From NCBI RefSeq assembly GCF_000374045.1, contig NZ_KB893314.1, positions 395,372 to 459,371 of the forward strand: a stretch of 64,000 bases of DNA, given 5' to 3'. Both the position numbers and the translations under genes were made by a program. The notes under the pieces are model-generated. The model was not told where the DNA came from. It did no database searches and worked only from the letters and a program-made list of their open reading frames with translations. The DNA comes from Segetibacter koreensis DSM 18137 (GTDB taxonomy: Bacteria; Bacteroidota; Bacteroidia; Chitinophagales; Chitinophagaceae). Shown piece by piece: positions 34,138 to 36,001 of the stretch (position 1 is the first letter of the stretch; each line of letters starts with the position of its first letter).

Positions 34138-34728
34138 TTATTTGGGTAACGCTAACATTCTGTTTACATATTTTCCGATCATATCAAATTCTATATTTAC
34201 AGTGCTGCCTTCTTTTACCTGTTGTATATTGGTGTGAGTGTAAGTGTAAGGAATAATGGCTACAGAAAAAGAATTACCATCTACATTAAAAACCGTAAGA
34301 CTTATTCCGTTTAAGCTGACAGATCCTTTTTCAATTATAAGCGCTGCAAACTCCGAGGGAAATTCAAACCGGAATTCCCAACTTCCATCCGCATCTTTTT
34401 TTTCAATGCAAACAGCAGTTGTATCAACATGACCTTGCACGATATGCCCATCAATGCGTCCGTTCATCATCATGCACCTTTCAAGATTTACTAAAGTTCC
34501 TTGCTGCCATACGGAAAGGTTTGTTTTTTTTAACGTTTCTTCTATTGCAGTCACGCGGTGCAAACCTTCTTTTACTTCCTCGACAGTCAGGCAAACGCCA
34601 TTATGCGAAACGCTCTGATCAATTTTTAATTCGTGAGAAATAGGTGACGATATCCAAAAAGTAGCATTAGTTCCTTGCTTATCAATAGATTGTATAATTC
34701 CAAATGCTTCAATAATTCCTGTAAACAT
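34138..34728 (-). CDS. ribE: Riboflavin synthase, alpha chain
   Basis: Dismutates two molecules of 6,7-dimethyl-8-ribityllumazine to riboflavin and a pyrimidine by-product. The 196-residue protein has the twin lumazine-binding domains: MFTGIIEAFGII starts the first (1-95), with SVSHNGVCLTV, and GRIDGHIVQGHVDTTAV opens the second (about 97 on), with GSVSLNGISLTV. Normal length. No FMN riboswitch is visible upstream and no other rib gene lies nearby. The leader is very short (TAATTTGC box about 7 bases before ATG). The GT2 gene follows immediately. Confidence 0.96.
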   Translation of the reverse strand: MFTGIIEAFGIIQSIDKQGTNATFWISSPISHELKIDQSVSHNGVCLTVEEVKEGLHRVTAIEETLKKTNLSVWQQGTLVNLERCMMMNGRIDGHIVQGHVDTTAVCIEKKDADGSWEFRFEFPSEFAALIIEKGSVSLNGISLTVFNVDGNSFSVAIIPYTYTHTNIQQVKEGSTVNIEFDMIGKYVNRMLALPK

Positions 34729-34767: not shown

Positions 34768-34798
34768 TTTGGAAATTTCAAAGCTTCCCTTACCTTTG
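34768..34798 (+). promoter_or_regulatory. rpsU promoter
   Basis: TTTG at 34768-34771 and TACCTTTG at 34791-34798, 19 bases apart, match the Bacteroidota -33/-7 consensus. Transcription would start near 34803, giving a leader of about 30 nt that contains the SD. Confidence 0.75.
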
Positions 34799-34815: not shown

Positions 34816-34823
34816 AAAGGAGA
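34816..34823 (+). promoter_or_regulatory. Strong Shine-Dalgarno sequence of rpsU
   Basis: AAAGGAGA, nine bases before the rpsU ATG, complementary to the 16S tail. I checked the 15-20 bases before each of the other starts by eye, and none has AAGGAG at good spacing; only gldG has AAAGGA. The SD also decides the rpsU start at 34832. Confidence 0.85.
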
Positions 34824-34831
34824 TATTTATT

Positions 34832-35029
34832 ATGTTGATTATTGATTCAAAAGATTGCGAAAATATAGACAAAGCACTCAAAAAGTATAAAAAGAAGTTT
34901 GAAAAATCAAAAATCTTGTTGCAATTAAGAGCGCGCCAGTCTTTCATGAAACCTTCTGTTGAACGCAGAACGCAAGTGCTGAAAGCAGTTTACCGTCAAA
35001 AGATGGCAAACGGTGATTTTGAAGATTAA
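34832..35029 (+). CDS. rpsU: 30S ribosomal protein bS21
   Basis: A small-subunit protein of 65 residues, very basic: NIDKALKKYKKKFEKS, LLQLRARQSFMKPS and VERRTQVLKAVYRQKM are typical of bS21. The ATG at 34832 is chosen because the SD and the family N-terminus (MLIIDSKDCENIDKAL) agree; 24 in-frame codons upstream are not part of the gene. In Bacteroidota ribosomes bS21 helps hide the anti-SD, so the strong SD here invites autoregulation. The promoter is strong and a terminator follows directly. Confidence 0.95.
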   Translation: MLIIDSKDCENIDKALKKYKKKFEKSKILLQLRARQSFMKPSVERRTQVLKAVYRQKMANGDFED

Positions 35030-35053: not shown

Positions 35054-35098
35054 AACTGATAGCGTAAAGTAAGTTAGCTTTATGCTATCAGTTTTTTT
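35054..35098 (+). terminator. Terminator between rpsU and the Xer gene
   Basis: AACTGATAGCGTAAAG and CTTTATGCTATCAGTT pair (one G-U) around an 8-nt loop, followed by a T-run to 35097. The Xer start codon begins at 35099, so the hairpin and T-run fill the whole gene leader. Confidence 0.85.
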
Positions 35099-36001
35099 AT
35101 GAATTCCACCAAGTATCCTCAAGTACAGTCGTTTCTGGAATATTTGCAGTTTGAAAAGCGATATTCACAGCACACTATTATATCTTACCAGACTGATCTT
35201 GAGCAGTTTTTTGCCTTTCTGGAAAGTCAATATGATAGTCCACTGGTTGCTGCTATCGCTCCCGGTTTTATACGCTCGTGGCTTGCAGAAATGCGAAATG
35301 ATGCTATGACTCCCAAAAGTCTAAACCGCAAAATATCTTCGCTTAAGTCTTTTTTTAAGTACCAGATGAAAATGGGTGAGGTAAAGCAAAGTCCCATGAC
35401 TACTATTGCTGCCCCAAAAGTTGGTAAGCGACTTCCTTCTTTTGTAGCGCAGAATGACATGGATACTTTACAACAGTATGTTGAGTTTCCTGATACCTGG
35501 AAAGGCCTGACTGATAAATTATTGTTGGATTTATTTTATGCTACCGGCATGCGTTTAAGTGAACTGATAAACCTGAAAGACAGCCAAATAGATTTTGCGA
35601 ACTGCCAGGTTAAAGTTTTGGGTAAAGGAAATAAAGAAAGAATAATACCAATATCAAAAGATCTTATTACTCAATTAACCCAATATATTGACAGTAAAAA
35701 GAAATTGGTTTTCGAAACGGCGTGTTCTACCTTTTTTATAAATGAAAAAGGGAAGCCTTTATATCCAAAATACGTGTATAATGTCGTGAAAGCAAACCTT
35801 TCGCAGGTAACTACGGTGAAGAAGAAAAGTCCTCACGTACTGAGGCACACATTTGCAACCCATCTGACTAATAATGGAGCTGACCTTAATGCAGTAAAAG
35901 AGTTGCTTGGCCACAGCAGCCTGGCGGCTACCCAAATTTATACGCACAATACAATTGAAAAATTAAAGGATATCTATAAGAAGGCCCATCCCAAGGCATA
36001 A
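35099..36001 (+). CDS. Tyrosine recombinase, XerC/XerD type
   Basis: A 300-residue site-specific recombinase that resolves chromosome dimers at dif. The N-terminal SAM-like domain covers about 1-95 (YSQHTIISYQTDLEQF); the catalytic domain holds Arg in ATGMRLSEL, Lys in VLGKGNKERIIP, HVLRHTFATHL, LLGHSSLAATQIY with the nucleophile Tyr. Full length and intact. A gene of this kind after rpsU is a known Bacteroidota neighbourhood, normally called XerC; XerD cannot be excluded. There is no phage or integron context, so this is the housekeeping enzyme. It starts directly at the end of the rpsU terminator. Confidence 0.9.
   Translation: MNSTKYPQVQSFLEYLQFEKRYSQHTIISYQTDLEQFFAFLESQYDSPLVAAIAPGFIRSWLAEMRNDAMTPKSLNRKISSLKSFFKYQMKMGEVKQSPMTTIAAPKVGKRLPSFVAQNDMDTLQQYVEFPDTWKGLTDKLLLDLFYATGMRLSELINLKDSQIDFANCQVKVLGKGNKERIIPISKDLITQLTQYIDSKKKLVFETACSTFFINEKGKPLYPKYVYNVVKANLSQVTTVKKKSPHVLRHTFATHLTNNGADLNAVKELLGHSSLAATQIYTHNTIEKLKDIYKKAHPKA

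Follow-up and report, generated by a model that had tools for sequence, protein, structure and literature searches.

The gene for ribosomal protein bS21 (rpsU) of Segetibacter koreensis DSM 18137 is preceded by a strong Shine-Dalgarno (SD) sequence in a region whose other genes seem to lack one. This raises the question whether, as a sequence-only reading had proposed, the motif belongs to a feedback loop in which ribosomes without bS21 have a free anti-SD and translate rpsU best. The window analyzed here is the whole stretch of 64,000 nt, G000:C1:395372-459371, from a genome of 6.1 Mb in 73 contigs. We find that the observation at rpsU is confirmed, that the mechanism is known, and that the site in S. 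koreensis is a weakened variant lying outside the published criteria for such loops.

In the window sequence, AAAGGAGA occupies 34816-34823 and the rpsU start codon 34832-34834. The core SD AAAGGAG (34816..34822, + strand) was therefore placed correctly at nine nt before the ATG, counted from the last G of GGAG at 34822; counted from the final A, the gap is eight. rpsU itself (34832..35029, +) has a single match in the genome and encodes bS21 of 65 aa (Pfam Ribosomal_S21, E 6.2e-15) with Tyr54 present, and its leader sequence reads TCCAAAAATCTATCAAAGGAGATATTTATT-ATG. Upstream, TACCTTTG (34791..34798, +) is a putative −7 element by its fit to TAnnTTTG, which we take to be the Bacteroidota −7 consensus. 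It would give rpsU a leader of about 30 nt, and similar −7-like elements were seen by eye upstream of rpsU in many relatives. TTTG at 34768..34771 (+), 19 nt upstream of the −7 element, is a candidate −33 element, TTTG presumably being the −33 consensus. When the leader was folded, the best structure paired part of the SD but was no better than those of shuffled sequences (z 0.40). A terminator-like hairpin of 17 pairs with a T-run follows rpsU (35054..35093, +; one found versus a shuffle mean of 0.3). Its position between rpsU and a tyrosine recombinase gene without an SD (xerC/xerD-like, named by eye; 35099..36001, +) suggests that rpsU is transcribed alone. The divergent neighbor on the other side, a riboflavin synthase gene (named by eye; 34138..34728, −), has no strong SD.

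The partner of this SD was read from the only 16S match in the genome, with the rRNA 3′ end GGCUGGAAUACCUCCUUUUUAG and the tail GGAAUACCUCCUUUUUAG. Its CCUCC anti-SD is intact and A1534, by our numbering the A preceding CCUCC, is present. The core AAAGGAG forms seven pairs with CUCCUUU of this tail, followed by an A.C mismatch in which the A at 34823 (34823..34823, +) faces C1535; among relatives, leaders whose helix is unbroken (32 + 35 of 110 in the family) have a G at this position. Beyond the mismatch the extension UAUU(U) is retained (34824..34828, +), able to pair with AAUA and then possibly through a U.G pair with the tail GGAAUACC. However, it brings no gain in computed duplex energy; ViennaRNA leaves the UAU part unpaired. 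The duplex amounts to −9.2 kcal/mol including the initiation term (ViennaRNA, 13-nt tail), and the stacks of the seven contiguous pairs add up to −11.6 kcal/mol, compared to −19.6 for the unbroken AAAGGAGGUAU.

Scored against the organism's own 16S tail, rpsU (−9.2 kcal/mol) is the only one of 55 predicted window genes at ≤ −7 and one of three at ≤ −5, in agreement with the earlier claim that the region holds no other strong SD. Three further AAGGAG-N5-11-ATG strings occur in the window (24561 +, 36012 − and 58767 −); the latter two open frames of only 23 and 5 codons, and the first opens a frame of 135 codons for which a start further in seems more likely. On contig C1, a pair of 11-codon ORFs with AAAGGAGGUUAUU was considered as small SD genes and dropped, their surroundings apparently being long, near-identical and coding-like in another frame.

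Within the window the rpsU SD exceeds chance, but over the genome it does not. A simple codon-pair caller predicted 1605 genes in a sample of 2.02 of the 6.10 Mb (window included), of which 1603 starts were scored, with two upstream mock windows as control. Energies of ≤ −9.2 were found at 21 of 1603 starts versus 8 and 20 in the mock windows, so that for a named gene the chance expectation of such an SD is about 1%. Hardly different were the counts at ≤ −9 (21 versus 9 and 22, no clear excess), and only at ≤ −13 was there a small excess (6 versus 1 and 1, or 6 versus 2 and 2 when a 16-nt tail is used). Weak SD-like pairing is depleted (≤ −3 in 288 versus 387 and 448), as the literature has it for Flavobacteriales. 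Across the whole genome, AAGGAG-N5-11-ATG occurs 382 times and its backwards control 361 times; thus, SDs are not in general use. For comparison, PMC10783764 gives SDs in 1–2% of genes in Chitinophagia named as examples. In a first, smaller run, the sequence before predicted starts was rich in A from −10 to −13, a feature that the F. johnsoniae paper describes for −12 and −13 (PMC9976891).

A genome-wide scan had been named in advance as a way to refute the proposal, should many genes have equally strong, well-spaced SDs. The outcome is divided: of the 1603 sampled genes, 18 surpass rpsU, which ranks 19 in a tie extending to the 21st place with two others, yet one of the two mock windows yields about as many hits at this strength. 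Among the stronger genes are rplE (−14.1), rpsR (−13.2), rplX (−10.6) and rplI (−10.2, against −9.2 for rpsU), further an hsp20 gene and, both named by eye, a tyrosine integrase and a dehydrogenase-like subunit. In the large ribosomal-protein operon (G000:C1:56479-57404, −), a clear SD is seen only at rplX and rplE among the listed genes, and rplE overlaps the end of rplX.

The feedback mechanism is not new, as genetic and biochemical work on F. johnsoniae has already described it (McNutt 2023, PMC9976891), including the hiding of the anti-SD by bS21, bS18 and bS6 and the autogenous control of rpsU that the sequence-only reading had mentioned for Flavobacterium. According to that paper, initiation on rpsU mRNA is faster when the ribosomes have no bS21, and strong-SD reporters go up in Y54A, C-terminal-deletion and depletion strains. 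F. johnsoniae rpsU stands out by an extended SD, which is held necessary, a weak SD (AGGA) being without effect; a seven-base SD (AGGAGGU) in a tuf reporter already responds to bS21 mutation (PMC9976891). The loop, a demonstrated bacterial case of specialized ribosomes, is described there as limited to rpsU in F. johnsoniae and many Flavobacteriales. Two criteria define the class there: rpsU has the strongest SD of all ribosomal-protein genes, and its pairing lies below −13 kcal/mol; about half of Chitinophagales satisfy both (PMC9976891).

In S. koreensis the ingredients of the loop are present, namely an intact CCUCC anti-SD, A1534, bS21 with Tyr54 and a short leader; the proposed interpretation is supported to this extent and by the published loop, but its premise that rpsU alone has a strong SD fails. 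Tyr54 and A1534 both occur as residues, and their stacking is predicted. The organism's bS21 aligns without gaps to bS21 of PDB 7jil, which we take to be the F. johnsoniae ribosome, with Tyr54 on Tyr54, and the two best PDB matches of bS18 as well as of bS6 are chains of 9i5v and 7jil. In the sampled third of the genome, at least four ribosomal-protein genes rank above rpsU, whose pairing is −11.6 kcal/mol contiguous or −9.2 as a duplex with initiation, on a scale only approximately that of the paper's free_scan. Falling short on both counts, the site is read as a weakened member of the class by descent, with a likely function.

We consider it fairly probable that the site is a regulatory rpsU SD of the F. 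johnsoniae kind, weakened here. In complete ribosomes, the 16S 3′ tail would be hidden in the pocket of bS21, bS18 and bS6; in ribosomes without bS21, the free tail would pair with the rpsU SD and more bS21 would be made. A single G-to-A difference, found in our Segetibacter and in Chitinophagales bacterium 62-2 (independently or by shared descent), breaks the otherwise continuous helix, so that the loop should be weaker. We infer that the SD probably continues to regulate rpsU in S. koreensis.

As a sequence-based argument for a real rpsU site, the comparison with relatives is stronger than the window statistics. Ten Segetibacter genomes were searched and nine gave a match, our own included. 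In six of the nine leaders the helix runs unbroken (AAGGAGGUAU, −14.2 to −15.8); two carry GGAGAUAU (−9.2 and −9.1), and one is decayed (−7.5, congener 3557_3). In a family set of 110 leaders (80 named plus 30 more, one identical leader left out), 67 reach ≤ −13 and 43 are weaker. The form AAGGAGGUAU accounts for 32 and the G-rich AAGGGGGUAU, seen in Flavipsychrobacter, Taibaiella and others, for 35 when several registers of the sorting key are taken together; the rest are weakened or lost, and in named Chitinophaga mostly so. The rpsU site is thus evolutionarily labile in Chitinophagaceae, being strong, weakened or lost. Tyr54 of bS21 is found in 80 of 80 named family members, and its retention in several Chitinophagaceae, notably Chitinophaga, whose site is absent or weakened indicates that the loop is dispensable.

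The most probable rival is that the site is a decaying relic, an ancestral regulatory SD no longer selected in this lineage, and that bS21 synthesis has become constitutive, which also seems to hold for Chitinophaga. The site is one substitution away from the form of its congeners, congener 3557_3 has decayed further, and weak forms recur in the 43 family leaders above −13. On the other hand, neither the core nor the UAUU extension is damaged, and 6 of 110 family leaders (GGAGA-UAU in three, GGGGA-UAU in three; L004, G000, G143, L019, L052 and L069) share the state of having an A in place of the G opposite C1535 while retaining UAU, a recurrence that plain decay need not produce. We regard a relic as possible, though clearly less probable than a weakened regulatory site.

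A transfer of the SD duty from rpsU to rpsR, whose product bS18 also forms the pocket, was suggested by the two genomes with GGAGAUAU, since they have the strongest rpsR SD (GGAGGUAU; −13.2 and −13.0, compared to −9.3 to −10.6 in the other seven). In addition, rpsR reaches ≤ −9 in 40 of 71 family genomes, 6–11 nt from the ATG, and in a FastTree phylogeny of six proteins our genome clusters with three congeners that show the opposite state (support 0.99), although its place inside that group is weakly supported (0.62). However, the pattern was spotted after the fact in two genomes, and the trade-off, striking within Segetibacter, is gone over 71 family genomes: rpsU and rpsR are not associated (rank correlation 0.10, p 0.40), and a strong rpsR SD occurs in 2 of 20 genomes whose rpsU SD is weak and in 4 of 51 where it is strong (Fisher p 1.0). 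Such a hand-over is therefore rejected as a trade-off and is quite improbable as an explanation of our site. Least credible of all is a chance resemblance, because the six congeners with stronger SDs at the same place already contradict it, even if about 1% of sampled genes and mock windows reach the rpsU energy.

Some further observations concern the genes around rpsR and other carriers of bS21. The rpsR SD sits in the last codons of rpsF (L143, rpsF-rpsR junction). The junction has the form GA[AG]-G[CT]N-TA in 42 of 71 genomes and uses GAG in 33 of these 42, compared to a share of GAG of 24.5% among the Glu codons of our genome. Within the nine Segetibacter genomes, none of xerC, ribE and rpsF reaches −9 (lowest values −2.8, −6.9 and −4.7), and rplI is at ≤ −10.2 in seven. 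In viral bS21 genes from IMG/VR contigs (L377-L380; four loci, two distinct sequences), Tyr54 is kept and no SD was found before the gene, so that such copies would escape the feedback. For phages, PMC9723584 reports an aromatic residue at position 54 of bS21 and, in 127 published genomes, Hsp20 genes in the vicinity of bS21.

The 16S tails of the family are nearly uniform, with AUACCUCC in 80 of 84 genomes with a tail match; 310 of 394 family genomes gave none, probably mostly due to missing 16S genes or a diverged pattern. Class-wide, the types AUA, ACA, UCA, UUA, CCA and ACAUCUC were found (51 of 149 genomes matched). Outside the family, 30 of 37 rpsU leaders have no SD of ≤ −13 and seven have one (one further genome gave no rpsU match). 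Taking the part after CCUCC as UUU, six of these seven SDs pair better with the tail of their own genome than with any other of seven variants, the margin over the next being 0.4 to 4 kcal/mol (two ACA, two AUA, one UUA and one UCUCA type); the exception is G447 (ACA), which fits two other variants better. The UCUCA-type case is already described in PMC9976891. The remaining own-tail fits suggest a covariation of SD and tail at nt 1532–1534. A change of the core anti-SD matching AAAAGGGGGUAU leaders was also considered; the search obtained a tail from 5 of 49 genomes, and the idea was rejected on one of them, Flavipsychrobacter stenotrophus, whose tail is AUACCUCCUUUUU and whose SD therefore pairs with an internal G.U.

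Strong SDs recur in Chitinophagales on a second gene class, hsp20, and this pattern is a new lead. Our hsp20 gene with a strong SD (G000:C1:235492-235944, +, outside the window; Pfam HSP20, E 3.1e-25) has the leader AAAAAGGAGGAATT-ATG with −13.5 kcal/mol; the genome has seven hsp20 genes, two of them with an SD. Thirty-nine relatives were searched, 36 of them with a match, and 71 of the 83 matches listed, the best taken first, were scored, using an assumed AUA tail outside the family. Among these 71, 23 have an SD of ≤ −9 versus two in mock windows of the same leaders, and 15 of 63 when eight congeneric orthologs are removed. The comparison with genes in general (21 of 1603, window two bases shorter) gives a Fisher p of 6e-22, which is nominal as the rows are related. 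Such an SD occurs in 11 of 27 genera with a match, or 12 with the upstream ATG as the start in G592. The other 48 of the 71 have none at ≤ −9, most being near 0 with A-rich leaders. In Segetibacter, the ortholog is at −12.9 to −13.6 in all nine genomes having it (L327-L335), the leaders being otherwise diverged and the SD spacing shifting by one base; the tenth genome (71% complete) gave distant hsp20 matches only. As rplI is strong in seven of nine Segetibacter genomes, hsp20 is not the sole other gene with a repeated SD. Of five plasmid hsp20 genes among the eight Bacteroidota matches listed, three are preceded by GGAGG or something close to it (−7.5 to −10.7) and two are not. Upstream of the SD, L327-L335 share a conserved TGGCATTTTnnTTGATTT-like stretch, resembling what we take to be the sigma-54 −24/−12 promoter motif.

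What might the hsp20 SDs do? PMC9976891 gives an activation energy for initiation on rpsU mRNA of 42.9 kcal/mol for wild-type and 18.3 for bS21 C-terminal-deletion ribosomes, and suspects release of the tail from the pocket behind this steep temperature dependence. Between 30 and 40°C these values correspond to about 9.7-fold and 2.6-fold, and hence a strong SD could give hsp20 a heat-gated translation. Heat would open the pocket and ribosomes would then reach the strong hsp20 SDs, the ribosome itself being the thermosensor, in a reversal of the RNA thermometer principle. In this way, hsp20 translation could be favored by heat or by a loss of bS21. That the hidden anti-SD of Chitinophagales is a general switch rather than one reserved for rpsU, by which heat or loss of bS21 routes ribosomes to hsp20, is nevertheless a speculative and rather unlikely proposal. 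The registers differ, with an SD spacing of 4–6 nt at hsp20 (20 genes with GGAGG) and 7–11 nt, once 16, at rpsU (51 genomes). Forty-eight of the 71 scored hsp20 genes (of 83 matches listed) lack an SD of ≤ −9, and in F. johnsoniae the published work finds rpsU only (PMC9976891). Five other heat-shock-type genes, found by motif in the sample (FtsH, one; DnaJ-type, three; DnaK-type, one, its start uncertain), have no strong SD, and a general heat-shock SD regulon was rejected; GroEL, ClpB and HtpG were not recognized in the sample. Plain high expression or a horizontal origin could also account for the hsp20 SDs. We recognized no description of hsp20 SDs or of anti-SD heat control in Bacteroidota in the portions of the open-licence literature covered. 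Should a heat-opened pocket indeed drive hsp20, the puzzling persistence of an intact anti-SD in SD-blind bacteria would have a second, testable answer.

RNA thermometers of hsp20 genes are known from Proteobacteria (ROSE and relatives). Provided the heat switch is real, the hsp20 case would resemble them in that synthesis of a small heat-shock protein is controlled at the SD. It would differ in that the masked partner is the anti-SD of the ribosome; neither our hsp20 nor the rpsU or rpsR locus has an Rfam match at the gathering threshold, and no shared SD-hiding hairpin was seen by eye in nine predicted hsp20 folds. For rpsR, GGAGG before the gene is reported from Bacteroidales, Cytophagales and Sphingobacteriales (Jha et al. 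2021, as cited in PMC9976891), to which Chitinophagaceae can be added, their order being unnamed for rpsR in that passage. The closest known system is the F. johnsoniae loop, which the S. koreensis site matches in the gene, the position of the SD, the CCUCC anti-SD, Tyr54, the short leader and the probable transcription of rpsU alone. Unlike in F. johnsoniae, the Segetibacter helix is interrupted by A.C and yields −11.6 kcal/mol of contiguous pairing instead of about −20, the rpsU SD is not the strongest of the genome, and the tail is of the AUA variant.
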